DNA of 64,000 nt, taken from Phycicoccus sp. Soil748 (GTDB lineage Bacteria; Actinomycetota; Actinomycetes; Actinomycetales; Dermatophilaceae). Shown here in pieces: positions 619 to 23,828 of this stretch. The notes beneath the pieces were generated by a model, which worked only from the letters and a program-made list of their open reading frames with translations, ran no database searches and had not been told where the DNA came from. The stretch is taken from assembly GCF_001428025.1 (NCBI RefSeq), contig NZ_LMSC01000012.1:140547-204546 (forward strand), given 5' to 3'. How positions within the stretch are numbered: the first letter of the stretch is position 1; each line of letters begins with the position of its first letter. Both the position numbers and the translations under genes were made by a program.

Positions 619-632
619 GGGCACTAGGTCCC
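619..632. promoter_or_regulatory. DosR-like box A (GGGCACTAGGTCCC)
   Basis: Core of a nearly perfect dyad spanning 614-637 (GGACAGGG and CCCTGTCC arms). It lies 66 bp from the USP start at 553 and 66 bp from the CBS start at 698, so one site could serve both divergent genes. Same 14-bp layout as nine other sites in this window. Confidence 0.7.
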
Positions 633-697
633 TGTCCGGGGTCACGTAGGAGCGGGAGCCTTGCAGCGCAACGTCCGTCGACCGCGGGGAGGCCGCC

Positions 698-1333
698 ATG
701 CTGGTGCGCGAGATCATGACCGTCCCGGCACACAGCCTGCCGCTGGGTGCCTCGATGGAGGTGGCGATCCAGCTCTTGGCGCGCGCGCACGTCTCCGCCC
801 TCCCGGTCGTCGACCCCGACCGCCGCGTCGTCGGCATCGTGAGCGAGGCCGACGTCCTGCGCGTCCACCTGGTGCCGGACCCGCGGGCCCACCTGCGGCC
901 CGTCGAGGCGCCGGAGGACCCGTGGCCGACCACGCTGGACGAGGTGATGACGCCCGACCCGGTGACGGTGATGGAGTCCGCGGACGTGGCCGACGTGGGG
1001 CAGCTGCTCGCCGACACCGGGTGGAAGAGCGTGCCCGTGACGCACGACGGCCGGCTCGTCGGCATCGTCAGCCGCAGCGACATCCTGCGGGCGCTGACCA
1101 CCTCCGACAGCTCGATACGCCGGCACCTCACGCGCGAGTTCGCGGAGCTGGGCCGTGCCCGCTGGGTCGTGTCGGTGAACGAGGGCCAGGTGACCGTGTC
1201 CGGCACCCGCGGCAAGCGGGAGGCGCGGCTCGCCGAGGTGATGGCCTCCGCGGTCGCCGGTGTACGCCGCGTCGTGGTCACACCGTCCAACCCGGCGCAG
1301 AGCCGGGCGGAGGGCCACCAGCCCGCTCGGTGA
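698..1333 (+). CDS. CBS-CBS-BON domain protein (Hrp1-like)
   Basis: 211 aa. Two CBS motifs (about residues 5-58 and 82-135, each ending in VGIVSxxDxLR) form a Bateman module that usually senses adenine nucleotides. A C-terminal BON domain (about 140-196, VNEGQVTVSGT) suggests a membrane or ligand contact. The two-CBS DosR-regulon protein of M. tuberculosis, Hrp1 (Rv2626c), is made of the CBS pair only, so the BON addition is a difference. A GGGGAGG site precedes the ATG. The gene is divergent from a USP gene and shares box A. The ligand is not known; the domain call is firm. Confidence 0.93.
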   Translation: MLVREIMTVPAHSLPLGASMEVAIQLLARAHVSALPVVDPDRRVVGIVSEADVLRVHLVPDPRAHLRPVEAPEDPWPTTLDEVMTPDPVTVMESADVADVGQLLADTGWKSVPVTHDGRLVGIVSRSDILRALTTSDSSIRRHLTREFAELGRARWVVSVNEGQVTVSGTRGKREARLAEVMASAVAGVRRVVVTPSNPAQSRAEGHQPAR

Positions 1334-1343
1334 CACCTGCACG

Positions 1344-1401
1344 CTCAGTGAGCGCAACGTGTCGGAATGCATGTCCCATGACGGCACCTTGCGCTCACTG
1401 A
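1344..1401. repeat. Inverted repeat, copy 1 of a dispersed element
   Basis: Arms TCAGTGAGCGCAA (1345-1357) and TTGCGCTCACTGA (1389-1401) pair perfectly. The left segment CTCAGTGAGCGCAACGTGTC resembles the arm of a second copy at 54713-54770. It lies between the convergent CBS and DoxX genes and may act as a terminator for the CBS gene. Confidence 0.65.
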
Positions 1402-1453
1402 AGCGCGCACTGAGCTGAGGTGCGTCGTACGGCGCCCCGCGGGACCGCACGAA

Positions 1454-1486: not shown

Positions 1487-1519
1487 GTCGGTGCTGGCCG
1501 GCGGAAGGACCGCGGAGGG

Positions 1520-2116: not shown

Positions 2117-2240
2117 GGTCGTCTCCTTCTTCATCGGGTGGTGCAGGGGAGCCGGAGGGGTTGCTCCTCCTCGTCGGCGATGGTGCTGCCTCCGAAGGTC
2201 TCCAGCTCGAACGCTAGGGCCGGATGTGCCTGCCACGTAT

Positions 2241-2254
2241 GGGCTTAGGTCCTG
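2241..2254 (-). promoter_or_regulatory. DosR-like box B (minus strand CAGGACCTAAGCCC)
   Basis: Fits the shared GGGACCTANGGYCC pattern with two weaker positions. It abuts the stop codon of the USP-like gene and precedes the DoxX-like gene by 125 bp. Confidence 0.5.
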
Positions 2255-2734: not shown

Positions 2735-2770
2735 GCGGCGAGTGTGTGCCCATCGCAACGGGACCGGACA

Positions 2771-2784
2771 CGGCCGAAGGTCCC
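2771..2784. promoter_or_regulatory. DosR-like box C between USP-like gene and dosS
   Basis: CGGCCGAAGGTCCC; on the minus strand GGGACCTTCGGCCG. It lies 43 bp before the dosS ATG and 37 bp before the minus-strand USP-like start, and suggests that dosS-dosR is autoregulated. Confidence 0.65.
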
Positions 2785-2814
2785 GGACCGGCACCCAACA
2801 GGCACGAGTCGGCC

Positions 2815-2820
2815 TATCCT
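2815..2820 (+). promoter_or_regulatory. Predicted -10 (TATCCT) of dosS
   Basis: TATCCT ends 6 nt before the ATG at 2827 and there is no Shine-Dalgarno sequence, so the transcript is probably leaderless. Box C would then sit at about -43 to -56, a position usual for DosR-type activation. Confidence 0.5.
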
Positions 2821-2826
2821 GCGGCC

Positions 2827-4560
2827 ATGCCCTGGCACACGTCGCCCGACGGACCACCGCGCACTGCCCTGCAGGCGGAGGGTCTTCTCGACGCCGTGCT
2901 GGCCGTGAGCACCGGACTCGAGCTGTCCGAGGTGCTGCGCCGTATCGTGCGCTCGGCGTGCCAGCTCGTGGGGGCGCGGTACGGCGCGCTCGGGGTGCTC
3001 GCCCCCGACCGCGACCACCTCATGGAGTTCATCACCCACGGCCTCACGGACGAGCAACGTGCGGAGATCGGTGACCTGCCGCGGGGGCACGGCGTCCTCG
3101 GGCTGCTCATCCGCGACCCGAGGCCCCGGCGCATCGGCGACATCCGGACCCACCCCGACTCCTACGGCTTCCCGCCGCACCACCCGCCCATGGCCAGCTT
3201 CCTCGGGGCCCCGATCCGCGTTCGGGACGAGGTCTTCGGCAACCTCTACCTCGCAGACACGGAAGGGTCGGCGGCGTTCACCGAGGAGGACGAGAGCCTC
3301 GTGGTGGCGCTGGCCGGCGCGGCCGGTGTCGCCATCGAGAACGCACGGCTCTACGAGCGCAGCCGCGCCCAGCGCCGGTGGGCGCAGGCGATCGGTGACG
3401 TCAGCCAGGCCCTGCTCGAGAGCGAGACCGAGCTCGACGCCATGGCGGTCACCGCCGAGCAGGTGTGCCGCGTGGCTGGCGCGCGTGGCTGTGCCGTCGC
3501 CCGCGACCGCGAGGGCGACGCGCCGGTCGTCGTGGCCGTCCACCGCACCGACGACGAGCCCGCACCGGACCGGTTCATGGCGGGTGACCACGGGACCGGT
3601 CTGGGCGTGCTCGACGGTCCTCACTGGGAGGCCGTCCGCGACGTGCGGCACTCGCTGCTGCTCATTCCCGGAGAGGAGCGAGCAGCGGTCGCCGCCATCG
3701 TCGACGACGTCCGGGCGATGACGGGGCTGGACAAGCCGGGCCCCACGGCGCTCGTCCCGGTGACCGCCGGCGTCGGCCACGTCGGCCTGCTGCTCGTGAC
3801 GTGGGACGCGGCCGACGCGGACACCGCGTCCGAGGTGCTCGGCCACCTCGACGATTTCGCCCAGCACGTGGGTCTCGCCCTGGTTGCTGCCAGCGCGCAG
3901 CACGACCGGGCCGCCGTCGCGATGTTCGAGGACCGTGAACGAATCGCCCGCGACATGCACGACCACGTCATCCAGCGGCTCTTCGCGACGGGGCTCTCGT
4001 TGCAGGCAGGCGAACGGCTGGCACAGCACCCTGTCGTGCGCGGCCGCATCGAGGAGGCGGTGAGCGAGCTCGACCTCGCGATCAAGGACATCCGCCGGGC
4101 CATCTACCAGCTCACCCCCGCCCAGCCGGTGGCCGGGCTGCGGGGGCGGCTGGCGGAGCTGGTGGCGGGGTATGCCGACGTTCTCGGCTTCGGGGCACGG
4201 TTCAGCCTTTCGGGGGAGGCCACCGGGATCGGCCCCGCGCTGGAGATGGACGTGTCCGCGGTGATCCGCGAGGCCCTCGCCAACGTCGCCCGGCACGCCC
4301 ACGCCACGGAGGCGTCCGTGCGGGTCTTCATCGGCCCGAGCATCGAGGTCGTCGTCACCGACGACGGGACGGGGCTCGGCAACGGCGACCGGCGCAGCGG
4401 CCTGGCCAACCTCGCCGAACGCGCGACCGCCCGGGAGGGACGGTGCGAGGTCGAGGCCGTGCACCCGCACGGCACCAGGCTCACGTGGAGCGTGCCTGCA
4501 GGCAGCGCAGCGCGGCACACCGGGTGGACAGGACCATGGTCCCGCGAGGAGCACGGCTGA
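2827..4560 (+). CDS. dosS: DosS/DevS-like heme-GAF sensor histidine kinase
   Basis: 577 aa, the length of M. tuberculosis DosS. GAF-A covers about residues 30-175 and holds the motif YGFPPHHPPMASFLGAPIRV. The same HHPPM segment in mycobacterial DosS/DosT carries the proximal heme ligand, so this GAF probably binds heme and senses O2/NO/CO or redox state. GAF-B spans about 190-355. The HisKA_3 segment RERIARDMHDHVIQRLFATG contains the phospho-acceptor H378, and the ATPase domain closes with DDGTGLG and GLANLAERA. No membrane segment is seen, so it is soluble. It is followed 64 bp later by the DosR-like regulator. Family call is strong; the signal it senses is inferred. Confidence 0.93.
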   Translation: MPWHTSPDGPPRTALQAEGLLDAVLAVSTGLELSEVLRRIVRSACQLVGARYGALGVLAPDRDHLMEFITHGLTDEQRAEIGDLPRGHGVLGLLIRDPRPRRIGDIRTHPDSYGFPPHHPPMASFLGAPIRVRDEVFGNLYLADTEGSAAFTEEDESLVVALAGAAGVAIENARLYERSRAQRRWAQAIGDVSQALLESETELDAMAVTAEQVCRVAGARGCAVARDREGDAPVVVAVHRTDDEPAPDRFMAGDHGTGLGVLDGPHWEAVRDVRHSLLLIPGEERAAVAAIVDDVRAMTGLDKPGPTALVPVTAGVGHVGLLLVTWDAADADTASEVLGHLDDFAQHVGLALVAASAQHDRAAVAMFEDRERIARDMHDHVIQRLFATGLSLQAGERLAQHPVVRGRIEEAVSELDLAIKDIRRAIYQLTPAQPVAGLRGRLAELVAGYADVLGFGARFSLSGEATGIGPALEMDVSAVIREALANVARHAHATEASVRVFIGPSIEVVVTDDGTGLGNGDRRSGLANLAERATAREGRCEVEAVHPHGTRLTWSVPAGSAARHTGWTGPWSREEHG

Positions 4561-4624: not shown

Positions 4625-5284
4625 ATGACGACGATCTTCCTTCTCGACGACCACGAGATCGTGCGGCGCGGGCTGCGGGAGCTCCTTGAGGGCACCGAGG
4701 GGTTCACCGTCATCGGCGAGTCGGGGTCTGCCCTCGAGGCGGCCCGGCGCATCCCGGCGCTGCGCCCCGACGTCGCGATCTTCGACGCCCGCCTCCCCGA
4801 CGGGTCGGGGATCGACGCCTGCCGCCAGGTCCGGTCGGTCGACCCCTCGATCGCCGGGCTCATCCTCACCTCGTTCGACGACGACACCGCCCTCGGTGCC
4901 GCGATCCTCGCCGGCGCGGCCGGATACCTCCTCAAGGACATCCACGGCAACGGCCTCATCGAGGCCATCAGGCGGGTCGCCCGCGGCGAGAACCTCCTCG
5001 ACCCCGAGCGCGCGCGCCGGGTCCGCACGGGCTGGCGCGAGGACCGCGACGCCGACCCGCGGCTGCGGTCGCTCAGCCCGCAGGAGCGCCGGATCCTCAA
5101 CCACATCGCGGCCGGGCTCACCAACCGGCAGATCGGCGAGGAGATGGCCCTCGCGGAGAAGACCGTGAAGAACTACGTCACGTCGGTGCTCGCCAAGATG
5201 GGGATGGAGCGCCGCACCCAGGCCGCCGTGTATGCCGCGACCCACGTGCCGTCGGGGCCGAACGGGCGTACCGCGCGACGGTAA
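4625..5284 (+). CDS. dosR: DosR/DevR-like response regulator (NarL family)
   Basis: 219 aa. The receiver domain (1-120) has DD at 8-9 and phospho-acceptor D54 in AIFDARLPDGSG; the LuxR-type helix-turn-helix is at about 150-210. The recognition helix region LAEKTVKNYV and following MERRTQAAV are the same as, or nearly the same as, M. tuberculosis DosR, including the Lys-Lys-Asn residues that contact GGGAC half-sites. This explains why this window's boxes keep the same outer bases. The ATG at 4625 follows GGAAAGGGCG; an upstream in-frame GTG at 4583 is less likely. It is the predicted activator of the units at boxes A-J. Confidence 0.94.
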   Translation: MTTIFLLDDHEIVRRGLRELLEGTEGFTVIGESGSALEAARRIPALRPDVAIFDARLPDGSGIDACRQVRSVDPSIAGLILTSFDDDTALGAAILAGAAGYLLKDIHGNGLIEAIRRVARGENLLDPERARRVRTGWREDRDADPRLRSLSPQERRILNHIAAGLTNRQIGEEMALAEKTVKNYVTSVLAKMGMERRTQAAVYAATHVPSGPNGRTARR

Positions 5285-5941: not shown

Positions 5942-5946
5942 GTCGG

Positions 5947-6819
5947 TCAGGTCGAGCGGGGCGAGGGGACCACGAGGACGGGGCAGCTCGCGTGGGCGAT
6001 GAGGTGGGCGCTCACCGAACCCAGGAGCAGGCCGGTGAAGCCGCCGCGACCCCGGGTGCCCACGACGAGCAGCTGGGCCCCGAGGGACTCCTCCGCCAGC
6101 GCGGCCACGGTCTGGGCCCGGACCAGCGTCGTGGAGACCTCGACGTCCGGGTACTTCTCGTGCCAGCCGGCGAGCATCTCGGCCACCTCGAGGCGCTGGG
6201 AGTCCACCACCTCGCGCCAGTGACCTTCCCACTCGTAGCCGGACAGGAACGGGTCGGGCTCCTCCCACCACCACGAGTGCACGGCCACGAGCTTGGTCCC
6301 GCGGGCCTGGGCCTCGGCGAAGGCCCACTCGACGGCGGGCGCGGAGTGCCTCGAGGCGTCCACCCCGACCACGACCGGGCCGGTGTGGGTCCACTTGCCG
6401 TTGTGTGGCGTCACGAGCACGGGGCAGTGCGAGTGCGCCGCCACCTTGTGGGTCGTCGCGCCGAGCAGGACGCCGGCCGCGTGGCCGAGGCCGCCGGCGT
6501 CGAGGACCAGGACGTGGGCGGTCTGGCTGGCCTCGACGAGTGCCGCGGCCGGGTCGGCGACCACGGTGTCCCTCGTCACGCGGAGGTCGGGGGCCAGGGT
6601 GTGGGCGCGGTCGCTGAACTCGTCGGTGGTGCGGTCCTGCGCCTCGAGCCGCTCGACGGTCCACGGGACGATGCCGATGCCGGTGGCGTGCAGGATGTGC
6701 AGGGGCCGGTGCATGCGCTGGGCCTGGACGACTGCCTCGTCGAGCGCGTGGTGGGCTGCCGCGGAGCGGTCGACACCCACGACAACGGCGTCGCGGGGCT
6801 GTGCGTCCAACCTGGTCAT
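5947..6819 (-). CDS. Universal stress protein, two-domain
   Basis: 290 aa, two tandem UspA domains (about 8-140 and 147-288). The second keeps the full ATP site GTRGRGGFTGLLLGSVS; the first is a variant (DAGGLGHAAGVLLGATT). This is the architecture of the DosR-regulon USPs Rv2005c and Rv2623, which bind ATP and restrain growth. GAGAGGAC precedes the ATG. Box D lies 59 bp upstream, and a divergent flavin-protein gene has its own box E, so the intergenic region carries two sites 45 bp apart. Probably transcribed with the PNPOx-like gene downstream. Confidence 0.94.
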   Translation of the reverse strand: MTRLDAQPRDAVVVGVDRSAAAHHALDEAVVQAQRMHRPLHILHATGIGIVPWTVERLEAQDRTTDEFSDRAHTLAPDLRVTRDTVVADPAAALVEASQTAHVLVLDAGGLGHAAGVLLGATTHKVAAHSHCPVLVTPHNGKWTHTGPVVVGVDASRHSAPAVEWAFAEAQARGTKLVAVHSWWWEEPDPFLSGYEWEGHWREVVDSQRLEVAEMLAGWHEKYPDVEVSTTLVRAQTVAALAEESLGAQLLVVGTRGRGGFTGLLLGSVSAHLIAHASCPVLVVPSPRST

Positions 6820-6877
6820 GGCCTGTCCTCTCGGTGGTGGTCACCCTCACGGTCGCGCCCCGCAGGGGGTGGTGGGA

Positions 6878-6891
6878 GGGGCGAAGGTCCT
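6878..6891 (-). promoter_or_regulatory. DosR-like box D
   Basis: Plus strand GGGGCGAAGGTCCT, minus strand AGGACCTTCGCCCC, 59 bp before the USP start at 6819. Confidence 0.6.
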
Positions 6892-6922
6892 GCCCGCACG
6901 CCACTGGCGGAGGGCCGGATTC

Positions 6923-6936
6923 GGGACCTTGGACCC
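6923..6936 (+). promoter_or_regulatory. DosR-like box E (GGGACCTTGGACCC)
   Basis: 36 bp before the ATG at 6972; it is 45 bp centre-to-centre from box D. Its closeness to the start implies a very short leader. Confidence 0.6.
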
Positions 6937-6971
6937 CACCCCGCGCCGCCCGGCGACGCCACCGTGGACGT

Positions 6972-7409
6972 ATGGCGACGACGACCGACACCCCCATGAC
7001 CGAGATGCCGATGCACGAGTGCTGGGCCCTGGTGCGCGAGGCGGTGGTCGGACGGCTCGCCACCGTCTTCGACGGCCACCCGGAGATCTTCCCCGTCAAC
7101 CACGTGGTCGACCACGGCAGCGTGGTCATCCGGACCGCGGCGGGCGCCAAGCTGGAGAGCGCGGTGGGGCGGCTGGTGGCGTTCGAGGTGGACGGCTACG
7201 ACGTCGAGAACCGCAGCGCGTGGAGCGTGGTGGTCAAGGGCCGGGCCGTCGAGCTGACCAGGCTGCACGACGTCCTCGACGCCATGAGCCTGCCCCTCTT
7301 CCCCTGGCACGGCTCCTCCAAGCCGCACTTCCTGCGTATCGAGGCCAGCGAGGTGACAGGTCGGCGCTTCGTGGTCGCCGGCGGGACCGAGCACGCGGGG
7401 ACCTCGTGA
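6972..7409 (+). CDS. Pyridoxamine 5'-phosphate oxidase-like flavin-binding protein
   Basis: 145 aa, split-barrel flavin fold: GRLATVFDGHPEIFPVNHVV, then VIRTAAGAKLESA and FEVDGYDVENRSAWSVVVKG. It aligns along its length with the protein at 5349-5855, so the pair looks like a local duplication flanking the USP gene. A second in-frame ATG (codon 9) is possible. Its stop overlaps the GTG of the Ddn-like gene by 4 bp, so the two are translationally coupled. Role inferred: flavin or F420-linked reduction under hypoxia. Confidence 0.87.
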   Translation: MATTTDTPMTEMPMHECWALVREAVVGRLATVFDGHPEIFPVNHVVDHGSVVIRTAAGAKLESAVGRLVAFEVDGYDVENRSAWSVVVKGRAVELTRLHDVLDAMSLPLFPWHGSSKPHFLRIEASEVTGRRFVVAGGTEHAGTS

Positions 7410-9130: not shown

Positions 9131-9213
9131 CGCGCACCTCCGGATCAGTCGGCCGGCCGACGGGGGTCGCGACGGCGGGGCACCACGGTGGCAGTGCGCC
9201 TGGTCGTCCGGTC

Positions 9214-9227
9214 GGGCCCTTGGTCCC
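9214..9227. promoter_or_regulatory. DosR-like box F (GGGCCCTTGGTCCC)
   Basis: Nearly perfect dyad in the divergent region between the CoA-transferase (start 9130) and the SPFH gene (start 9290). Confidence 0.65.
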
Positions 9228-9289
9228 GATCCGCTTCCGAGGCGTCGGCGCATGCTGGGAACACCAGTACCAACCCCTCGGAGCCCACC

Positions 9290-10207
9290 ATGTCCACCAC
9301 CGCCACCGTCCTGGTCGTCATCGGCGTCGTCGTGCTCGTCGCCCTCGCCCTGTCCCTGCGCATCGTCAAGCAGTACGAGCTCGGGGTCCTGTTCCGCCTC
9401 GGCCGGGTCATCGGCGTCCGCAAGCCCGGGCTGCGGGTGATCATCCCGATCGTCGACGTCCTGCGCCGGGTGTCGCTGCGGATCGTCACCATGCCGATCC
9501 AGTCGCAGGGGATCATCACCCGCGACAACGTCAGCGTGGACGTGTCGGCCGTCGCCTACTTCCGCGTCGTCGACGCCGTGAAGTCGGTCGTCGCCATCGA
9601 GAACGTGTATGCCGCGATCGACCAGATCGCCCAGACCACCCTGCGCAAGGTCGTCGGCCAGCACTCGCTCGACGAGACGCTGTCGGAGACCGACCGCATC
9701 AACGCCGACATCCGCGCGATCCTCGACGTGACCACCGTGGAGTGGGGTGTCGAGGTGACGCTCGTGGAGCTCAAGGACATCCAGCTGCCCGACAGCATGA
9801 AGCGGGCCATGGCGCGCCAGGCCGAGGCCGAGCGCGAGAAGAGGGCCAAGATCATCAACGCCGAGGGCGAGTCGCTGGCCGCGTCGGCTCTGGGCGAGGC
9901 CTCGGACACGATGATGGCCCACCCGCTGGCGCTGCAGCTGCGCAACCTGCAGAGCCTCGTGGAGATCGGGGTCGACAAGAACACGACCGTCGTCTTCCCC
10001 GCGCCGTTGATGAGCACCATCGAGGAGCTCGGCAGCTTCCTCGCCCGCGAGGGTGCGGCGGCCACCCGCCGAGCACCCCAGGTGGCCAACGGCGCCCCTC
10101 GCCCCGTCGTGCTGGCGGACATGGCGGACGGGGCCCCCGGTCCGAGCCCGGCCGGGCTCGGCGAGAAGGCGGACGGCGCGCCGGTCGAGGGCGGCGCCCT
10201 GGTCTGA
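9290..10207 (+). CDS. SPFH/Band-7 (stomatin/slipin-like) membrane protein
   Basis: 305 aa. One N-terminal membrane segment ([18 protein letters not shown]), then an SPFH domain (about 25-190: [40 protein letters not shown]) and a coiled-coil arm ([20 protein letters not shown]). SPFH proteins form oligomeric membrane scaffolds and often respond to membrane stress. Usual partners such as an NfeD protein are absent here. The last 60 residues are low-complexity Ala/Gly/Pro. The ATG follows CGGAGCCCACC. Box F is 63 bp upstream. Confidence 0.92.
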
Positions 10208-14833: not shown

Positions 14834-17602
14834 TCAGCGGGTGTCCGATCCCCTGGCCCCGCCGTCCGACGTCAGGACGGCATACCGACCGGCCTCGAGC
14901 CGAGCCACGGGCACCCGCGGCGGCGAGCAGGAGAGGTAGTCGACGCCGGCCGCCAGCAAGCGGTGGATCGACTCGGGGTCACCGGCGTGCTCGCCGCACA
15001 CACCGAGCCCCAGCGTCGGCCGGGCGAGTCGGCCCTCCTGCACCGACAGGCGGATGAGTCGGCCGACCCCGACGTCGTCGAGCGTCGAGAACGGGTCGGT
15101 CGTCAGCGTCCCGGACTGGCGGTAGGCGGCGAGGAAGCTCGTCTCGGCGTCGTCGCGCGACATGCCCCAGGTGGTCTGCGTCAGGTCGTTGGTGCCGAAC
15201 GAGAAGAACTCGACCTCCTCCGCGAGCCGCCCGGAGGTGAGGGCTGCCCGCGGGAGCTCGATCATCACGCCGAGCGGGATGCGCAGCTCCACGCCCTCGG
15301 TGGTGGCGACGTCGTCCACCTCGGCGCGGATGCGCACGAGTGCGGCGGTGAGCTCGCGGGCGTCGGCCACCAGCGGCACCATCACCTCGGGGCGCGGGTC
15401 CCGGCCCCGGTTCCGCAGCGACACCGTGGCCTCGGCCAGCGCGCGCACCTGGGCGGTCACGAGCTCCGGCACGGCGGCGAGCAGGCGCACGCCACGCAGG
15501 CCGAGCATCGGATTCTGCTCGTGCCAGCGGCGCACCATGGCGAGACGCCGCTCCGCCTCGGTGTCCGGGGAGCCGACGGCCCTGGCTACCGCCGTGCGCA
15601 CCTCGAGTTCGACCAGGTCGGGAAGGAACTCGTGCAGTGGCGGGTCGATCAGCCGGATGACGGTCGGCAGCCCGTCCATCTCCTCGAGCACCTGCTCCAG
15701 CTCCAGCCTGGCCAGCTCCTCGATCCGCGCCAGCGCCGCAGCGCGCTCGTGGCCGGTGACGACCTGCTCCACGAGGGTGCGCCGGTCGCCGAGCAGCATG
15801 TGCTCGGTCCGGGCGAGCCCGATGCCCTGCGCGCCGTACTCCCTCGCGGCGCGGGCGTCGGTCGGCGTCTCGGCGTTGGCGCGCACCCCGGCGGTGCGGC
15901 GCAGGTCGGCGTGGGCGAGCAGCCGGCCGACGGAGCGCACGGTGGCGTCCGGGTGCGAGAGGTACGGCGCGCCGTCCTGGCCGCGGCTGGTGGACCAGCT
16001 GCGGATGGCCACGGCACATGCGCTGGGGACGACCTCGCGCGCGCCGAGGAACACCTCACCGGTCGAGCCGTCGACGGACAGCGAGTCTCCCTCGTTGAGG
16101 ACTCCGCCCCCGGGAAGCGTTGCCCTGCGTGCGGACTCGTCGACCTCGAGGCCCTCGACGCCGGTGACGCAGGTCCGGCCGAGCCCTCGCGCCACGACGG
16201 CAGCATGCGACGTCAGCCCACCGCGGGCGGTGACGACGGCTGCCGAGGCCAGGAGGCCGCCGAGGTCGTCCGGGCTCGTCTCGGGGCGCACGAGCACGAC
16301 GCGTTCACCGCGCCCCGCCCACTCCATCGCAGTAGCGGCGTCGAAGACGGCCCGACCGGTGGCCGCCCCGGGGCTGGCCGCCAGCCCACGCGCGACCGGC
16401 TGCTCGCCTTCGCCAGCCGCCGGCCCCTCTCCGGCGCCCGTCACGAACCCCGGGTGCAGCAGCGACGCCAGCTGGTGCCCCTCCACCCGGCACAGCGCCT
16501 CGTCGAGGTCGATGACACCCTCGTCCACGAGGTCGCACGCGATGCGGAACGCCGCCGCCGGGCTCCGCTTGCCCACCCGGGTCTGCAGGATCCACAGCCG
16601 CCCCTCCTCGACGGTGAACTCCACGTCGCACAGGTCCCGGTAGTGCCCCTCCAGGGTGGCCAGGTGGCCGAGCAGCTCGCGGTGCACCGCGGGTTCGCGG
16701 ACACCGAGCTCGCCGAGGTCCATCGTCCGGCGGCTGCCGTTGACGACGTCCTCACCCTGCGCGTCGACGAGGTAGTCGCCGTAGGGCTCCGGGTCACCGG
16801 TGGCCGGGTTGCGGGTGAAGCAGACGCCGCTCCCGGAGCGCCGGCCGCGGTTGCCGAACACCATCTGCACGATGTTGACGGCGGTGCCCAGGTCCTCGGC
16901 GATCCCCTCGTGCGCCCGGTAGCGGCGCGCGCGGTCGCCGGTCCACGACGCGAACACGGCCAGCACCGCACGGTGCAGCTGGTCCCGTGGGTCCTGGGGC
17001 AGGTCCTCGCCGGCGTTGTCGCGCAGCAGCCGCCGGAAGTCGCCCGTCACCTCCTCGAGGACGCCCGCCGAGAGCTCCTGGTCGGTCGCCACCCCCGCGT
17101 CCGCCCTGGCCCGGGCCAGCCGCTCCTCGAACAGGGCGGCGTCGACCCCCAGCACCGTCCGCCCGTACATCTGCACGAGGCGCCGGTAGGAGTCCCAGGC
17201 GAAGCGCGCCCCCTGGCGGGCGGCCACGGTCGCCACGACCTCGTCGGTGAGCCCGACGTCGAGGATCGTCTCCATCATCCCCGGCATGGAGAACCTCGCC
17301 CCCGAGCGCACCGACACGAGCAGCGGGTCCACCGGGTCGCCGAGGGCCCGCCCTGCGGTCCGCTCCAGCCGGGCCAGTGCCGCAGCCAGCTCCCCGGCCA
17401 GGGCGGCAGGCTCGTGACCCTCGCGCAGGTACTCGCGGCAGGCTGCGGTCGTCACCGTGAACCCGGCAGGCACGGGCAGCCCCAGCCGGGTCATCTGCGC
17501 CAGCCCGGCACCCTTGCCCCCGAGGACCTCCGCCATCGTCCCGTCGCCGTCGGCGAAGGAGACGACCAGCGGGGTCGAGGTCGCGGTGGTCAGTGCGGTC
17601 AT
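14834..17602 (-). CDS. ppdK: Pyruvate, phosphate dikinase
   Basis: 922 aa. The ATP-grasp domain is N-terminal (GGKGAGLAQMTRLGLPVPAGF), the swivelling phospho-His domain carries H466 in TARGGLTSHAAVVA, and the C-terminal PEP/pyruvate barrel shows GTNDLTQTTWGMSRDDAE and GVCGEHAGDP. It interconverts pyruvate + ATP + Pi and PEP + AMP + PPi, which in energy-poor cells can form PEP or harvest PPi. GGGAGAC precedes the ATG. Box G lies 114 bp upstream, and ppdK is also part of the hypoxia (OsdR/DevR) cluster of Streptomyces coelicolor, so regulation by the DosR-like protein fits. Confidence 0.97.
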   Translation of the reverse strand: MTALTTATSTPLVVSFADGDGTMAEVLGGKGAGLAQMTRLGLPVPAGFTVTTAACREYLREGHEPAALAGELAAALARLERTAGRALGDPVDPLLVSVRSGARFSMPGMMETILDVGLTDEVVATVAARQGARFAWDSYRRLVQMYGRTVLGVDAALFEERLARARADAGVATDQELSAGVLEEVTGDFRRLLRDNAGEDLPQDPRDQLHRAVLAVFASWTGDRARRYRAHEGIAEDLGTAVNIVQMVFGNRGRRSGSGVCFTRNPATGDPEPYGDYLVDAQGEDVVNGSRRTMDLGELGVREPAVHRELLGHLATLEGHYRDLCDVEFTVEEGRLWILQTRVGKRSPAAAFRIACDLVDEGVIDLDEALCRVEGHQLASLLHPGFVTGAGEGPAAGEGEQPVARGLAASPGAATGRAVFDAATAMEWAGRGERVVLVRPETSPDDLGGLLASAAVVTARGGLTSHAAVVARGLGRTCVTGVEGLEVDESARRATLPGGGVLNEGDSLSVDGSTGEVFLGAREVVPSACAVAIRSWSTSRGQDGAPYLSHPDATVRSVGRLLAHADLRRTAGVRANAETPTDARAAREYGAQGIGLARTEHMLLGDRRTLVEQVVTGHERAAALARIEELARLELEQVLEEMDGLPTVIRLIDPPLHEFLPDLVELEVRTAVARAVGSPDTEAERRLAMVRRWHEQNPMLGLRGVRLLAAVPELVTAQVRALAEATVSLRNRGRDPRPEVMVPLVADARELTAALVRIRAEVDDVATTEGVELRIPLGVMIELPRAALTSGRLAEEVEFFSFGTNDLTQTTWGMSRDDAETSFLAAYRQSGTLTTDPFSTLDDVGVGRLIRLSVQEGRLARPTLGLGVCGEHAGDPESIHRLLAAGVDYLSCSPPRVPVARLEAGRYAVLTSDGGARGSDTR

Positions 17603-17715
17603 GGCGAGTCTCCCGTCGTCGCATCGCGGCGGCCGCAGGCACGACCGCCACCGGGAGCCGGCGATCCCTCGCGCTCCCTACCGCCGACGATCACGCGCCC
17701 CGGCAGGACGGGACA

Positions 17716-17729
17716 GTGCCGAAGGTCCC
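17716..17729 (-). promoter_or_regulatory. DosR-like box G (minus strand GGGACCTTCGGCAC)
   Basis: 114 bp before the ppdK ATG. It pairs with box H, 46 bp away centre-to-centre, in the ppdK/USP divergent region. Confidence 0.6.
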
Positions 17730-17761
17730 CGGCGGCCCCGCGGAGGGTGTGAGCCTCGCAG

Positions 17762-17775
17762 GGGACCTATGGCCC
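17762..17775 (+). promoter_or_regulatory. DosR-like box H (GGGACCTATGGCCC)
   Basis: 85 bp before the USP ATG at 17860. It is followed directly by TGTGGG, similar to the TGTCCGG flank of other boxes. Confidence 0.65.
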
Positions 17776-17859
17776 TGTGGGCTCCCCGGGCCCCACACCA
17801 CGCTGAGGGTGCGGCATGCACATCCCCCCACCCGCCCCTACGCCCACCCGGAGGCTGCC

Positions 17860-18876
17860 ATGGTCGACAACGAAGCTCCTCGCCGTACCGAGCCGCAGGC
17901 CGAAGGGTGTGTCGTCGTGGGTTGCGACGGTTCGTGGGAGTCGCTGGAGGCGGTGGACGTCGCCGCCCGTGAGGCCCGCTGGCGCGGGCAGGAGCTCGTC
18001 GTCGTGACGCTGGAGGAGGGTATGGGGCGCGGTGCCCACGGCCCACGCGACTGGGCCGGGTCGGCGCGCGAGGTGGCCGAGGAGGTGCGGTCGGCCGGTG
18101 CCCGCGCCCTGGAGCGGCTGCGCACCACGGACGTCCCGGCGCGCACCGTCACCGCCACCACCGCCGCCTCGCCCGCGCTCGAGCCCCTGGCGCAACGGGC
18201 GTCGGTGCTCGTGCTGGGGCGCCATGGCGCGCGGGGCGTCGGGATCTTCACGATGGGTTCGCCGAGCGAGGCGCTGGCTCGCAGGCTCGGGTGCCCGGTC
18301 ATGGTGGCGGGGCCGACCGGTCCGCAGGCGGAGCCGACGGGCTCCGCGGGCGCGGGCGGGCAGCACGTGAAGCCCAACGCCGCGAAGGCTGCTGCCCTGG
18401 CGCGTCGCCACCCGGTCGTCGTCGTGGGGGTCGACTCCTCACCCTCGGCGGACGCGGTGCTCGGTGTCGCCGTCGCCCAGGCGCAGACCCGCGGCTGGCC
18501 GCTGACCGTCGTGCACTCCGTCGGGCGGGCGGAGGCCGAGCTGCACGTCGAGGCGTCCGTGATCTGGGACCGCCACGCCGACCTGCTGCTGGCGCAGCGG
18601 GACCCCGACCACTCGCTCGCACGGGTCGTGGTCGACCTCGACGACCCGGTGCCGGCGCTGCTGTCCCACAGCGGTCCTCGTGACCTGCTCGTCGTGGGCA
18701 CCCGGGGGGAGGGGCGCCTGGCCGGGCTCATCGCCGGCTCGGTGGCCCGAGGCGTCCTGGACGCCATGCCCTGTGACGTCCTCGTGGTGCCCCGCCACAT
18801 GACGTCCGCCACGGCCCAGCAGGGCCGGGCCGCGACCGACACCGTGGTCGAGCCCACCACCAGCGGCGCCCGCTAG
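17860..18876 (+). CDS. Universal stress protein, two-domain
   Basis: 338 aa. Two UspA domains (about 15-150 and 185-310) joined by an Ala/Gly-rich linker. The second has GTRGEGRLAGLIAGSVA, fitting G-2x-G-9x-G-S; the first has GRHGARGVGIFTMGSPS, also a good ATP site. The C-terminal 25 residues are low complexity. GGAGG lies 5 nt before the ATG. It diverges from ppdK, each gene having its own box (G and H). It is convergent with the beta-CASP gene, the two stops being only 48 bp apart and separated by a 15-bp tandem repeat. Confidence 0.93.
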   Translation: MVDNEAPRRTEPQAEGCVVVGCDGSWESLEAVDVAAREARWRGQELVVVTLEEGMGRGAHGPRDWAGSAREVAEEVRSAGARALERLRTTDVPARTVTATTAASPALEPLAQRASVLVLGRHGARGVGIFTMGSPSEALARRLGCPVMVAGPTGPQAEPTGSAGAGGQHVKPNAAKAAALARRHPVVVVGVDSSPSADAVLGVAVAQAQTRGWPLTVVHSVGRAEAELHVEASVIWDRHADLLLAQRDPDHSLARVVVDLDDPVPALLSHSGPRDLLVVGTRGEGRLAGLIAGSVARGVLDAMPCDVLVVPRHMTSATAQQGRAATDTVVEPTTSGAR

Positions 18877-18926
18877 GGGTCCGCCAGCTAGGGGTCCGCC
18901 CGGTAGGGGTCGGCCCGGTAGGGGTC
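18874..18926. repeat. 15-bp tandem repeat between convergent genes
   Basis: Four TAGGGGTC blocks at 18874, 18889, 18904 and 18919, exactly 15 bp apart, with CCGCC/CGGCC spacers. The first supplies the TAG stop of the USP gene; the last reaches the stop of the convergent nuclease gene. Confidence 0.85.
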
Positions 18927-20295
18927 AGAGCAGGACGCGCTCGCCGAGCCGGGGCACCACGACGGTGGCGCCGGTGCGCTCGCGCACCTGGTCGGCCAGG
19001 GCGTGGGCGGCCTCCGGTTCGCCGTGGGTGACGAACACGGTCTCGGGCTCCTCCGGCAGCCCGAGCAGCCACTCCAGCAGCTCCTCGGCGTCGGCGTGCA
19101 CCGAGAACCCCTCGTCCTGCACGATCTCGGCGCGCACCCGGACGTACGACCCTGCGATCTTCACCTCCCGGGCGCCCTCGGCCAGCGCCCGCCCGCGGGT
19201 GCCGACCGCCTGGTACCCCGTCAGCACGACCGTGTTGCGCCGGTCGGGCAGCAACGCCCTCAGGTGGTGCACCACGCGCCCGCCGGAGGCCATGCCGGAG
19301 GAGGACACGATGATGCTCGGCTCGTGGGGCCGGTTGATGCGCGTCGACTCCTCCGCCGTCGGCAGCGTCCGCAGCCCCGGCAGGCTGACGAGCTCGGTCC
19401 CGAGGCCGGGGCGCAGCTCCTCGCGGTGCCGGGAGTCGCGGTACACCTCGAGGACCGCGAGGGCCATCGGGCTGTCGACGTACACGGGCACGTCGGGGAT
19501 CCGGCGGCTGCGCCAGAGCTCGCTCAGGGCGTGCAGCACGAGCTCGGTGCGGTCGACGGCGAACGCGGGGATGACGACCGAGCCGCCGCGCGCGATGGTG
19601 CGCGTGATGGCCTGGGCCAGCTCGTCGTGGCCGGGGTCCGGCGGTGGGTGGCTGCGGTCGCCGTACGTCGACTCCACCACGACCGCCCGCGCCGCCGGCG
19701 GTGTCTCCCGGGGCAGCAGGACCGGGTGGGCGGGCCGGCCGAGGTCGCCCGAGAACAGCACCGTGGTGTCCGCCGTCGTGAGGTGGGCGTTGGCCGAGCC
19801 GAGGACGTGGCCGGCGCGCACCAGCACGAGGGTGCCCTGGCCGCCCAGGGGGACCGGGGCGGCGTACGCGGTCTCGTGGAAGAGCCGCACGGCCCGCTCC
19901 ACGTCGCCACCGGTGTAGAGCGGCATCGGTGGGTGGTGCTTGGAGTAGCCGCTCGTGCGCGCGTACGACGCCTCCTCCTCGAGCAGGTGCGCGCTGTCAC
20001 GCAGGACGATCGGCGCGAGGTCGGCCGTTCCGCTCGTGCACCGGACGGGTCCGTCGAATCCCTGTCGTACCAACGCAGGCAGGTAGCCGCAGTGGTCGAG
20101 GTGGGTGTGGGTGAGCACCACCTCGTCGATGGTGTGGGCGCCGACCGGGAAGGGCTCCCAGTTGAGGCGACGCCACTGCCGTTCGCCTTGGTAGAGGCCG
20201 CAGTCCACGAGGGTGCGCCGGCCGGAGTGCTCCACCAGGGTCCGGCTCCCGGTGACCGTGCCCGCCGCCCCGAGGAACGTCAGCACGGTGCTCAT
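18925..20295 (-). CDS. MBL-fold beta-CASP RNA nuclease-like protein
   Basis: 456 aa. Metallo-beta-lactamase motif HTHLDHCG (63-70), then the metal-binding GHVLGSANAHL and FSGDLGR, a beta-CASP insert, and C-terminal SGMASGGR and FSVHADAEELL, as in CPSF73/YSH1-type RNA-processing nucleases. Its likely role is RNA maturation or decay; the target is unknown. The ATG at 20295 overlaps (ATGA) the stop of a 12-codon leader ORF that has the good ribosome site, so translation is probably coupled. Box I lies 88 bp upstream. Confidence 0.9.
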   Translation of the reverse strand: MSTVLTFLGAAGTVTGSRTLVEHSGRRTLVDCGLYQGERQWRRLNWEPFPVGAHTIDEVVLTHTHLDHCGYLPALVRQGFDGPVRCTSGTADLAPIVLRDSAHLLEEEASYARTSGYSKHHPPMPLYTGGDVERAVRLFHETAYAAPVPLGGQGTLVLVRAGHVLGSANAHLTTADTTVLFSGDLGRPAHPVLLPRETPPAARAVVVESTYGDRSHPPPDPGHDELAQAITRTIARGGSVVIPAFAVDRTELVLHALSELWRSRRIPDVPVYVDSPMALAVLEVYRDSRHREELRPGLGTELVSLPGLRTLPTAEESTRINRPHEPSIIVSSSGMASGGRVVHHLRALLPDRRNTVVLTGYQAVGTRGRALAEGAREVKIAGSYVRVRAEIVQDEGFSVHADAEELLEWLLGLPEEPETVFVTHGEPEAAHALADQVRERTGATVVVPRLGERVLL

Positions 20296-20330: not shown

Positions 20331-20382
20331 GGTGGGCTCCCTTCGCTGGCCCCACGGTCCCGGTCGCGACGTGGACCGGACA

Positions 20383-20396
20383 GGGGCCTAGGTCCC
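20383..20396 (-). promoter_or_regulatory. DosR-like box I (minus strand GGGACCTAGGCCCC)
   Basis: 88 bp before the beta-CASP ATG and 53 bp before its leader ORF; flanked by TGTCCGGTCC on the minus strand. It sits just after the stop of the upstream ATPase gene. Confidence 0.7.
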
Positions 20397-20413
20397 GCCG
20401 GCAGTGCGCGGGC

Positions 20414-23062
20414 TCAGAGGCTCGAGGGACGCACCAGGCGCGCGGCGACGTATGCGGCCAGCCCGCTGCCCGCTGCCCATGCCCAGGACGAGAGCGGGGG
20501 AAGGTGCGCACCGAGGAGCTGGGCGAGGGGTGGCACCGTCACCGCGGCGACGAGGAGCAGGCCGGCTGCTGCGAGGGCGCCCGGGAGGACCAGCCGCTGC
20601 CGCCCGAGGTGACGTGCCGTCCGGGACCGCAGGGCCAGGGCGACACAGAGCTGGCCGACACCCAGGGCGAGCAGGGCGGTGGAGGGCCCGAAGTGGTCGC
20701 CGGCCACGACGGCCCCGGCGAGCGCCGCGGAGGCCACGACCGCGGCGAGCAGCCCCAGCCGCCACCACAGGCCGTCGAGAGCGTTCTGGCGCGGCGGACG
20801 GGGGCCGCGGGTCATGGCGCCGTCCTCCAGCGCCTCGGCGCCGAGTGCGGCTCCGGCGAACGAGTGCGTCACGAGGTTGACCCACAGGATCTGCGCCGGC
20901 AGCAGGGGCAGCGGCACCCCCACCAGCGGCCCGGCCAGCATGAGCAGGATCTCCGCCGCGCCGCCGGAGATGCCGTAGAGCAGGAAGCGGCGGATGTTGG
21001 CGTAGACGCGACGCCCCTCCTCGACCGCGGCGACGACCGTGCCGAGGTTGTCGTCGGTGAGGATGACGTCGGCCGCCTCTCGCGCCACCTCGGTGCCGCG
21101 GCGGCCCATGGCCACGCCGATGTCGGCGCGGTGCAGCGCCGGGGCGTCGTTGACGCCGTCGCCCAGCATCGCCACCACGTGGCCGGCGTGCTGCCACGCG
21201 GAGATGAGCTCGAGCTTGTCGGCGGGGGTGGCCCGTGCGATGACGCGGTGGCGGCTGACCTCCGCGACGCCCGGTGCCCCTGCCGGTGTCTGTGGTTCGG
21301 GCACCTGGTGCAGCGCAACGGGTCCCGACCCGACGGGGATGTTGACCGCGCGAGCCACGGCCCACGCCGTCGCGGGGTGGTCGCCCGTGACGAGTCCGAC
21401 CTCGATGCCGGCGCGCTGGCAGGCGGCCACGGCCTCGGCGGCGGCAGCGCGCGGCAGGTCCCGCAGGGCCACCAGGCCGGTCAGGTGCAGCCGGGGCACG
21501 TCAGCGGCGAGTGCGGGTAGGGCGCCGACGCGGCCGATGGCGACGGCCAGCACGCGTTCGCCGGCGGCGGCCAGGGTGCTCGCCTGCTCCAGCGCCTCGG
21601 CCACCAGCTCGGGCGGGTCGTCGAGCACGTCGGGACGGAGCATGACCTCGGGCGCCCCCTTCGAGACGACCAGCACCCCGCTCCCGGGGCCCTGCACCGA
21701 GGTGCCGGTGGCGAGCGGGTCGGTACCGGTGGCTTGCGGGTCCGGTGCGTCCGACGCCCACGGCGACTCCTGCGGTACGGCATGCCAGGTGGTCATCCGC
21801 TTCGTGCGGCTGTCGAAGGGGACCTCGGCCAGCCGCCGGTGCGCCGCCCGCAACCCCACGGTGTCGACCCCCGCGGCGCCGGCCGTGTCGAGGAGCGCCG
21901 ACTCGGTGGGGTCGTGGCGCAGCCCGCCGTCGACCCCGTCACCGACGTCGTTGCACAGCACCACTGCTCGCATGAGGGACTCCGGCGAGGCGCCCTCGGG
22001 CTGCCAGGTCGACGAGACCGCCATCAACCCTTCGGTCAGGGTGCCGGTCTTGTCCGTCGCCAGCAGCGTGACCGAGCCCAGCGTCTCGACGGCCGCGAGG
22101 TTGCGCACCACCGCGTGTCGCGAGGCCATGCGTCGTGCTGCCAGGGCCATGCTCAGGGTCACCACCAGCGGCAGCGACTCGGGCACGGCCGCGACGATGA
22201 GGCTGACCCCGGTGAGGAGCATCCGCTCGACGGGCTCGCCGCGCAACAGCCCGAGTGCGAAGACCAGGGAGCACAGCACGACGGCCGCGACGGCGAGGTG
22301 GCCGGAGAGCCGGCTCATCCGCAGCTGCAACGGGGTGCGGCGCTGCTGCGTCCCCACCATCAGGGCCGCGATGCGACCGGTGGCACTGGCGGAACCCGTG
22401 GCCGTGACCCGGGCCGTGCCGCGTCCGCGGACCACCGCGGTCCCGGCGTAGAGCGTGGCGGCCTCCAGCGCCGCCGCCTCGACCGAGGGATCGACCGTGG
22501 CGTCGAGCTGCGCGTCAGGCGTCGTCCGCGGGCCGGTTGGGGGCGCAGGCGCCTTCCCGACCGGCTCCGACTCACCGGTCAGCATCGACTCGTCGACCGT
22601 GACGCCGGTGCCCGCCACGAGCACCGCGTCGGCGGGCACGAGGTCGCCCTGGCGGAGGTGGACGAGGTCGCCCGGCACGAGGTCGCGGACCGACACCGTC
22701 TGCTCGCGCCCGTCGCGGGTCACCGTCGCCGACGGCGTCACGAGCGAGGACAAGGCCCGAACCGCCCGGTCGGCGTTGACCTCCTGACGGACCGCGAGCG
22801 TGGTGTTGACGACCACCACCAGCGCGATCACGGCTGCGTCGGTGAGGTCAGTCGTGACGAGGGTGAGGACCAGGGCGGCGAGCAGCACGAGCACCAGGGG
22901 GTCGCGCAGAGAACGCAGGACCCGCACGCCGACTGATGGCGGCCGGGCTTCGGGGATGGCGTTGGGGCCGTGGACTGCCCGCAGCCGGGCCACCTCGGCG
23001 CTGTCGAGCCCGGGCATGCCCGGTGCCGCTGCCGGGTCCGCCGATGCGGCGCGGGTGGGCAC
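20414..23062 (-). CDS. P-type cation-transporting ATPase (CtpF-like)
   Basis: 882 aa. N-terminal cation-ATPase domain, actuator TGES (162-165), channel motif VPESLP (293-298), phosphorylation site DKTGT (337-341), hinge GDGVNDAPAL, and about ten membrane segments including four at the C-terminus, giving a type II (P2) layout. M. tuberculosis CtpF (Rv1997, DosR regulon) is of this type and moves Ca2+; the ion here is not certain. The GTG at 23062 is the first in-frame start after a TGA. A 39-codon ORF and the gene at 23182 precede it closely, so it is likely co-transcribed from box J. Confidence 0.93.
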   Translation of the reverse strand: MPTRAASADPAAAPGMPGLDSAEVARLRAVHGPNAIPEARPPSVGVRVLRSLRDPLVLVLLAALVLTLVTTDLTDAAVIALVVVVNTTLAVRQEVNADRAVRALSSLVTPSATVTRDGREQTVSVRDLVPGDLVHLRQGDLVPADAVLVAGTGVTVDESMLTGESEPVGKAPAPPTGPRTTPDAQLDATVDPSVEAAALEAATLYAGTAVVRGRGTARVTATGSASATGRIAALMVGTQQRRTPLQLRMSRLSGHLAVAAVVLCSLVFALGLLRGEPVERMLLTGVSLIVAAVPESLPLVVTLSMALAARRMASRHAVVRNLAAVETLGSVTLLATDKTGTLTEGLMAVSSTWQPEGASPESLMRAVVLCNDVGDGVDGGLRHDPTESALLDTAGAAGVDTVGLRAAHRRLAEVPFDSRTKRMTTWHAVPQESPWASDAPDPQATGTDPLATGTSVQGPGSGVLVVSKGAPEVMLRPDVLDDPPELVAEALEQASTLAAAGERVLAVAIGRVGALPALAADVPRLHLTGLVALRDLPRAAAAEAVAACQRAGIEVGLVTGDHPATAWAVARAVNIPVGSGPVALHQVPEPQTPAGAPGVAEVSRHRVIARATPADKLELISAWQHAGHVVAMLGDGVNDAPALHRADIGVAMGRRGTEVAREAADVILTDDNLGTVVAAVEEGRRVYANIRRFLLYGISGGAAEILLMLAGPLVGVPLPLLPAQILWVNLVTHSFAGAALGAEALEDGAMTRGPRPPRQNALDGLWWRLGLLAAVVASAALAGAVVAGDHFGPSTALLALGVGQLCVALALRSRTARHLGRQRLVLPGALAAAGLLLVAAVTVPPLAQLLGAHLPPLSSWAWAAGSGLAAYVAARLVRPSSL

Positions 23063-23065
23063 GGG

Positions 23066-23185
23066 TCAGCCCCGCTGCCGCAGGAACCCATGGTGGGCGT
23101 CGACGCCCACCACTGCGGGTCCGGTGGAGGTGGGGGGGTGGGCCGTCCGCCCGGCGCCCAGGGCGAGGGCGGCCGGAGTGCTCAT
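23066..23185 (-). CDS. Possible 39-codon ORF between hypothetical gene and ATPase
   Basis: Its ATG overlaps the TGA of the preceding gene (ATGA) and its own TGA lies 3 nt before the ATPase GTG, an arrangement that would couple three genes. The text STGPAVVGVDAHHG resembles a USP N-terminus, so it could be a remnant of one. No known domain. Coding status is uncertain. Confidence 0.35.
   Translation of the reverse strand: MSTPAALALGAGRTAHPPTSTGPAVVGVDAHHGFLRQRG
23091..23112. repeat. 22-bp perfect palindrome upstream of the P-type ATPase
   Basis: Half-arm TGGTGGGCGTC followed directly by its complement, centre at 23101/23102. It lies 29 nt before the ATPase GTG. It could be an RNA hairpin limiting translation, or an operator. 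Confidence 0.6.
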
Positions 23186-23736
23186 GCGCCCGGGGGGCTC
23201 GAGGGGTCGATGCCGGTCGGTGACACCAGGACCACCGTGGTGTCGGGGTGGTCGCGGCAGACGCGGGCGACGGCCCGGGCCAGCGTCCGCGCCCGGTCGG
23301 CCGACGTCGTGCCCAGGGCGATCACCACGGCGTCACAGCCGGGGTCGTCGGCGAGGGCGTCCACGGCCGCGGCGAGGCTCCGTGCTGAGCAGTGCCTGGT
23401 GAGGTCCACGTAGTCCCGGACGCTGGCGGCGGGGGAGGAGCAGTGCCGGATCCGCATCTCCGTCTGCTGGCGCAGGTCGGGTGAGCGCGCCGGCGTGCCG
23501 CGCAGCACGCTGACCGCCTCGTCGCCCAGCTGGGCCTCGTCCGTGACGACGGCAACGCGTGGCGGACGGCTCCCCGCCGGCCGTCGCTGCAGGTGGTCGC
23601 CGGCCCCGGCGAGGTCGCCGACGGCGACGGGCAGCGCCCCGGGTGCGCGGTGACGGCCCACCACGTCCGTCCGGACCCGCCAGTGGCTCCCGTCAGCGAG
23701 CCGGTACGGCACCAGCCGCCGCGTCTGGTCCGACAT
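23182..23736 (-). CDS. Hypothetical protein of the DosR-like island
   Basis: 184 aa, soluble. I do not recognise the family. The C-terminal half looks like an alpha/beta nucleotide-binding unit (CDAVVIALGTTSADRARTLA ... DTTVVLVSPTGIDPSSPPGA), distantly USP- or CheY-like; the N-terminal half has GSHWRVRTDVVGRHRAPGALP. GAGGAGC lies 8 nt before the ATG at 23736. Box J is 79 bp upstream. Its stop overlaps the start of a 39-codon ORF that runs into the P-type ATPase, so the two are likely one operon. Confidence 0.72.
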   Translation of the reverse strand: MSDQTRRLVPYRLADGSHWRVRTDVVGRHRAPGALPVAVGDLAGAGDHLQRRPAGSRPPRVAVVTDEAQLGDEAVSVLRGTPARSPDLRQQTEMRIRHCSSPAASVRDYVDLTRHCSARSLAAAVDALADDPGCDAVVIALGTTSADRARTLARAVARVCRDHPDTTVVLVSPTGIDPSSPPGA

Positions 23737-23814
23737 CACCGAGCTCCTCACGTGACGGGGCGGCCGGGTCGCTCGTCCCGAGTCCACTGTCACCCCGGCG
23801 CGGCGCCGAAGGCA

Positions 23815-23828
23815 GAGACCTAGGTCCC
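23815..23828 (-). promoter_or_regulatory. DosR-like box J (minus strand GGGACCTAGGTCTC)
   Basis: 79 bp before the start at 23736. Only one base departs from a perfect GGGACCTAGGTCCC dyad. Predicted to drive the hypothetical-ATPase unit. Confidence 0.7.

Follow-up and report, generated by a model that had tools for sequence, protein, structure and literature searches.

Most of what is known about DosR comes from mycobacteria, in which it controls dormancy under hypoxia. In Mycobacterium tuberculosis, dosR lies before dosS, and the classic consensus of the operator has T/A beside a WW center. In the locus described here, the gene order is the reverse, dosS then dosR, and the bases beside the center are mostly C/G. 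The mycobacterial DosR/DevR regulon also has GGGAC half-sites, universal stress protein (USP) genes as targets, and a heme GAF-A domain in DosS (PMC3029386, PMC6448022, and PMC4082495); the box overlaps the −35 element and lies 34 bp from the start (PMC5360333), and the −10 elements are reported to be poor (PMC5360333 and PMC3029386). The locus is like the mycobacterial regulon in all of these features, those of the promoter and the heme domain being predicted ones.

The OsdR/OsdK regulon of Streptomyces coelicolor is a direct precedent. Its description (PMC5069765) presents OsdR as a DosR orthologue that has its own gene among its targets and a similar palindrome as its site; binding to such sites was shown by EMSA. 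Like the locus studied here, S. coelicolor has a ppdK/USP gene pair with sites (SCO0208/SCO0207) and a pyridoxamine-oxidase gene (SCO0214), and predicted OsdR sites such as AGGGACCTTCGGCCCC are nearly identical to ours. Streptomyces differs in two respects: GGGCCG predominates in its half-site where ours has GGGACC, and its −10 element peaks at 23 instead of 22 nucleotides (nt) beyond the box. Our literature search of open-licence PMC papers, in which absence is weak evidence, found no description of a DosR regulon in Phycicoccus and no paper that had the DosR regulons of Rhodococcus or Arthrobacter as its subject by title.

We analyzed a stretch of 64,000 nt, here called the window (C12:140547-204546 of a 3.97-Mb genome). 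It contains an apparently complete DosR circuit in a distant relative. The regulon is of a known kind, and its C/G-flanked box is a form common among actinobacteria, not a special one. The most useful addition to what is known is the fixed spacing between box and −10 element over distant clades.

It is highly probable that the palindromes serve as operators for the product of the adjacent dosR gene, a two-component response regulator. DosS, a GAF sensor whose homology suggests that it detects low oxygen (or NO or redox state) through heme, would phosphorylate DosR at D54. DosR would then bind the 16-bp palindrome MGGGACCWWGGTCCCK, which would stand in for the −35 element; centered at about −42.5 from the transcription start, the box would bring RNA polymerase to a −10 element of the weak form ANNNT, starting 22 to 23 nt beyond the box (class II activation). 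Some target mRNAs would be leaderless, with their 5′ ends on the start codon or beside it. Where two boxes lie between divergent genes (6877/6922 and 17715/17761), each would serve one gene; boxes 618 and 9213 may serve the genes on both sides. The probable targets encode USPs, PpdK, an acetyl-CoA hydrolase/transferase-family enzyme, flavin-type proteins, and a P-type ATPase. The parts of this scheme that can be read directly from sequence are the boxes, their spacing, the residues, and a partial co-occurrence with DosR.

The dosS and dosR genes and the boxes around them

The predicted features of the window are listed below; bits are matrix scores, and offsets are counted from the box. Genes were called with our own script, and a few start codons were set by hand.

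618..633, unstranded: DosR box, 15.6 bits, intergenic, facing a USP gene at 1-553 (−) and a CBS-domain gene at 698-1333 (+); −10-like elements (nAnnnT) at 590-595 (−) and 656-661 (+), offset 22 both ways
2239..2254 (−): weak DosR box before the gene at 1520-2116 (−); −10-like TAGCGT at 2211-2216 (TAnnnT at offset 22)
2770..2785 (−): DosR box, 13.0 bits, between the gene at 2255-2734 (−) and dosS; −10-like CACACT at 2741-2746, offset 23, facing 2255-2734
2815..2820 (+): TATCCT, probable −10 of dosS, offset 29 from box 2770, with the ATG 6 nt later
2827..4560 (+): dosS, GAF sensor histidine kinase (Pfam GAF and HisKA_3)
4529..4544 (+): palindrome resembling a DosR box within the 3′-terminal part of dosS, 17.9 bits, coding, 80 nt before dosR; CATCGT at offset 21; function uncertain
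4625..5284 (+): dosR, NarL-family response regulator
6877..6892 (−): DosR box, 13.7 bits, before a USP gene at 5947-6819 (−); −10-like GACCGT at 6849-6854
6922..6937 (+): DosR box, 14.8 bits, before a pyridoxamine-oxidase-family gene (Pfam) at 6972-7409 (+); −10-like CACCGT at 6960-6965; gap to start 34, predicted leaderless
9213..9228, unstranded: DosR box, 16.9 bits, facing an acetyl-CoA hydrolase/transferase-family gene at 7838-9130 (−) and an SPFH gene at 9290-10207 (+) (both Pfam); −10-like elements at 9185-9190 and 9251-9256, offset 22 both ways
17715..17730 (−): DosR box, 12.85 bits, before ppdK (Pfam) at 14834-17602 (−); −10-like GATCGT at 17687-17692
17761..17776 (+): DosR box, 14.3 bits, before a two-domain USP gene (Pfam) at 17860-18876 (+); −10-like CACGCT at 17799-17804
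20382..20397 (−): DosR box, 15.7 bits, before a beta-CASP nuclease gene (Pfam) at 18925-20295 (−); −10-like GACCGT at 20354-20359
23814..23829 (−): DosR box, 19.9 bits, the window's best, before the gene at 23182-23739 (−, no Pfam match); −10-like GACAGT at 23786-23791
20414-23062: P-type ATPase gene (Pfam), downstream of 23182-23739 behind box 23814
30856..30871 (−): DosR box absent from the earlier note, 13.2 bits, before a flavodoxin-domain gene (Flavodoxin_1) at 30288-30821 (−); −10-like CAGCAT at 30828-30833; gap to start 34, predicted leaderless

DosR is closest to the DevR structure 3c3w (7.7e-60). Its closest named match is from Phycicoccus sp. Root101 (92% over the best-matching segment, in a comparison that possibly left out the record of the window itself), which suggests a Phycicoccus relative. 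A two-domain NarL-type protein like DosR, DevR, and OsdR, it keeps D54, K179, K182, and N183, as well as K104, and it bears out the earlier claim that the DNA-contact helix is kept, since K179, K182, and N183 are the same as in DevR. The crystal structure shows base contacts for these three residues (PMC4082495), and residue roles in DosR are also given in PMC3029386. The D54-K104-K179-K182-N183 set is intact in 112 of 114 loci with a match, some loci containing one and the same gene in two copies of the count. The GAF domain of DosS matches DosT GAF-A (2vzw, 1.5e-48) and DevS GAF-A (2y8h, 3.5e-47), and its H119 and Y141 are spaced like His149 and Tyr171, which PMC4082495 gives as the proximal His and distal Tyr of the DosS heme GAF-A. 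With a putative GAF-A domain of this kind and a HisKA_3 kinase, the protein has the makeup of DosS/DosT.

All ten coordinates given in the earlier note carry a DosR-box-like palindrome (its site 2241 is scored here as 2240). It had put the sites 36 to 125 bp before their genes; we measured 34 to 122 nt to the gene faced by the −10 element. Site 2771 more likely serves the gene at 2255-2734 than dosS, since the correctly spaced −10 faces that gene. As regards a possible autoregulation of dosRS, the −10 of dosS, TATCCT, lies 7 nt beyond the usual spacing from box 2770, a misfit that speaks against dosS as a target of this box, and the box-like sequence before dosR, 4529, is coding.

Several minor features accompany the boxes. 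The coding palindrome at 4529-4544, with ANNNT at offset 21 toward dosR, may be an internal dosR promoter. GTCCGG(TCC) directly adjoins boxes 618, 2770, and 20382 on the gene side. An extended arm, TGTCCGGTCC, seen by eye at sites 619, 2771, and 20383, came to only a weak GTC tendency after the box (14, 10, and 14 of 26 orientations with a −10) and was therefore kept out of the motif. Tandem boxes had no sharply preferred distance, the fullest bin (25 bp) having 5 pairs. A cobalamin riboswitch at 23927-24166 (+) (Rfam RF00174, 77.2 bits) precedes the genes for the large (24293-26695) and small (26692-27747) chains of ribonucleotide reductase; the −10 of box 23814 points away from them.

The palindrome and its center

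To describe the motif independently of the ten sites, we enumerated palindromes of all 5-base half-sites with spacers of 0 to 10, intergenic versus coding, in 13 related loci (L031 to L043) with the window excluded. The top palindrome was GGGAC-N4-GTCCC, with 21 intergenic and 24 coding occurrences (log10P, −11.8); it was again top when some gene calls were redone (19 intergenic and 26 coding; log10P, −9.8). Enumeration was used instead of an EM motif search because the latter converged on coding-like repeats in the relatives' loci, genes having been under-called.

A matrix trained on the same 13 loci is not fully independent of orthologous sites, L031 being a close relative; it gave 12 window matches of at least 12 bits, 10 of them intergenic against 0.79 expected, and nine of these are sites of the earlier note. 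The best 11 window matches are nine of the ten sites, 30856, and the coding 4529. Site 2240 is absent from the 40 best matches (the lowest listed has 7.14 bits); it is supported because its TAGCGT −10 is at the exact spacing. A second matrix, built on the OsdR sites predicted for S. coelicolor in the literature (26 sequences), gave 13 window matches of at least 9 bits, 7 intergenic against 0.86 expected; just four of these 7 are among the ten sites, and the two top matches are coding. In 26 further stretches of the genome, 20 of which were chosen around pattern matches and none by −10 element, 25 of 38 matches of at least 12 bits were intergenic (4.17 expected). The ten sites are real, the agreement with independent matrices being well beyond chance. 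As in the mycobacterial DosR regulon, a palindrome with GGGAC/GTCCC half-sites stands upstream of the probable target genes.

The pattern as the earlier note wrote it, GGGACCTANGGYCC, fared worse. It fits exactly only at 17762 (1 of 10), the remaining nine sites needing one to three mismatches. With up to three mismatches it matches the window 67 times versus 69.96 expected from shuffles, and with up to one it matches the genome 21 times versus 16 in the control; because these counts are about those of expectation and control, the written pattern shows no enrichment.

The same note took a changed center as the sign of a lineage-specific operator. The window boxes keep the central WW, and the difference is confined to its neighbors, mostly C/G; at these positions the classic M. 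tuberculosis consensus, also so quoted there, has T/A. Clade matrices seeded with the outer half-site only, not the center, gave WW flanked chiefly by C/G in Dermatophilaceae, Nocardioidaceae, Micrococcaceae (C or G 60%, T 28%), a Frankia-type group, Acidimicrobiia, and Streptosporangiales/Actinospica. Most clades have A as the fifth base; no single base prevails there in Micrococcaceae (A 36, C 39) or in Acidimicrobiia (A 33, C 30, T 31). Unseeded enumeration in nine groups put GGGAC-N4-GTCCC at the top in four and GGGCC-N4/5-GGCCC in two; the top palindrome was not DosR-like in the Frankia-type group (GGGGG/CCCCC), in three other Micrococcales loci, or in three Propionibacteriales loci, and the clade matrices of the last two sets were poor. 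Published OsdR sites such as the one quoted above carry a C/G-flanked center (PMC5069765), and a weak mycobacterial consensus, RRGNCYWNNGNMM, allows one (PMC6448022). Because the clade matrices and these published sites share it, the supposedly lineage-specific center is a common actinobacterial form.

Spacing between box and −10 element

At all ten sites, a −10-like ANNNT facing a gene lies beyond the 16-bp box, at offset 22 in nine and 23 in one (2771); sites 619 and 9214 have it at offset 22 in both directions. The intergenic base rate of ANNNT at a given offset is 2.04%, and if two directions and two offsets are allowed at each of the ten sites, the chance of 10 of 10, estimated by hand, is about 1e-11. 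Three extra candidate sites (2217, 5922, and 23766) were rejected for having no ANNNT at offset 22 or 23.

For a larger set we took every intergenic box orientation of at least 11 bits facing a gene no more than 200 bp away in the window and the 26 further stretches (n = 53). nAnnnT stood exactly at offset 22 in 26 of these (49%), against a mean of 2.7% over 60 offsets; where the gap from box to start codon was at least 40, the figure for offset-22 ANNNT was 43% of 42 orientations. G residues follow the −10 element at the next two positions (22/26 and 20/26). In relatives (242 orientations, 80 named loci), ANNNT was at offset 22 in 35.5% and at 23 in 13.6%. The gap from box to start codon was exactly 34 in 6 of the 53 orientations, and in relatives it was 34 or 35 in 22 of 228 versus 1.16 per nucleotide elsewhere. 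This peak suggests leaderless mRNAs with the box over the −35 region; together with the offset-22 −10 element, it would place the box center near −42.5. A box over the −35 element about 34 bp from the start, the starts here being predicted ones, is also what the mycobacterial regulon has.

Offset 22 ranked top in Dermatophilaceae, Micrococcaceae, Nocardioidaceae, the Frankia-type group, Acidimicrobiia, and Streptosporangiales/Actinospica, and offset 23 did so in Streptomyces with its own matrix (nine loci; 23% of 26 orientations). Three sets had too few orientations for a judgment: the other Micrococcales (three loci, 12 or 6 orientations), the Propionibacteriales (three loci, 3 or 4), and Streptomyces when scanned with the relatives' matrix (3). 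Operator and promoter spacing are common to clades far apart, and we lean toward, without holding firmly to, one ancient DosR promoter grammar across Actinomycetota: a box, 22 or 23 nt, ANNNT, and a G-rich stretch after it, often leaderless. The regulon, and the gene served by each box, would then be readable from sequence alone, even in Acidimicrobiia, and the spacing rule would predict both DosR targets and transcription starts.

Boxes across genomes and competing explanations

The box pattern alone, GGGACCWWSGTCCC, with up to two mismatches, matched the genome 436 times versus 218 in the control (palindromes counted on both strands). Box plus −10 gave 46 matches versus 5, of which 12 fall in the window. 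Of the single local regulon proposed earlier, the cluster of probable targets around dosRS stands and the restriction to it does not: strong sites occur at C12 74-118 kb, before genes for an AMP-binding enzyme, a P-type ATPase, and a DUF4389 protein, and on other contigs, including C7 (zinc-type dehydrogenase, AAA_33 protein, and Rv2632c-like protein genes).

We counted the box plus −10 pattern, with up to two mismatches, in 58 genomes and compared the counts with the presence of DosR; these counts are not wholly independent of the pattern, which came from this genome and its relatives. Genomes with DosR at E ≤ 1e-80, a cutoff picked after the list was seen (24 genomes, our own included), had 500 matches versus 121 in the control, and those with no DosR (E > 1e-50; 20 genomes) had 148 versus 97 (P = 1.1e-05 on differences and 0.00018 on ratios). 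At the wider cutoff of 1e-50 (38 genomes), there were 648 matches versus 241 (P = 0.0028 and 0.019, respectively). Where DosR was moderately similar (E of 1e-80 to 1e-50; 14 genomes), there was little excess (148 versus 120). Within the family, our own genome excluded, 19 genomes with a close DosR had 380 matches versus 98, 64 of the 380 from G001, and 10 genomes without one had 61 versus 47 (P = 9.9e-05 against the 19). Two genus members with a DosR 79% identical to ours, G004 and G005, had hardly any excess (13 versus 8 and 8 versus 7). G044 and G052, classed as without DosR, had a clear excess; their best homologues (40 to 44% identity) keep K179, K182, and N183, an explanation reached after the fact.

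An operator peculiar to this lineage, with a CTAG center unlike the DosR family, is very improbable, even though CTAG or similar centers are common among the window sites and the classic M. tuberculosis consensus has T at the flank: the clade matrices have WW with C/G predominating beside it in Nocardioidaceae, Acidimicrobiia, Micrococcaceae, and Streptosporangiales/Actinospica, and the published OsdR and weak mycobacterial sites include it. Chance palindromes in GC-rich intergenic DNA would account for the failure of the pattern as first written to exceed shuffles, yet the independent matrices, the −10 spacing fixed at 10 of 10 sites, and the co-occurrence with a close DosR leave that explanation next to no room.

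Slightly less improbable than a lineage-specific operator, and still unlikely, is that the sites belong to another regulator, either a different NarL-type protein or an unrelated dimer, and that dosRS is merely nearby. The excess in G044 and G052 and its near absence in G004 and G005 would fit such a regulator, and the genome has three further NarL matches, two of them, among the matches listed, at 34 and 38% identity. However, NarL paralogues also occur in DosR-less genomes such as G002, a member of the same genus with 3 matches versus 1 in the control and a best homologue without K179. The clustering of a dozen of the 46 composite matches around dosRS, and the binding of such sites by OsdR in EMSA as described in PMC5069765, also favor DosR as the regulator. 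The reading of the sites as DosR-type operators, offered in the earlier note, is supported by the independent matrices and the fixed −10 spacing.

Some genomes stand apart in these counts. G001, of the same genus, has 64 box plus −10 matches versus 2 in the control, the highest of the 58, and perhaps has an unusually large DosR regulon. G019, G020, G024, G028, and G030 (loci L029, L030, L026, L025, and L027) encode DosR-like proteins of 58 to 62% identity and have little or no box excess; the protein of L027 has R at position 182. These family members perhaps use a different operator. In our own genome, a second GAF-GAF-HisKA_3 sensor gene (L132:14493-15887), possibly encoding a second DosS/DosT-like kinase, lies 136 nt downstream of a weak box-like sequence (L132:14341-14356, C12:74341; 11.4 bits).
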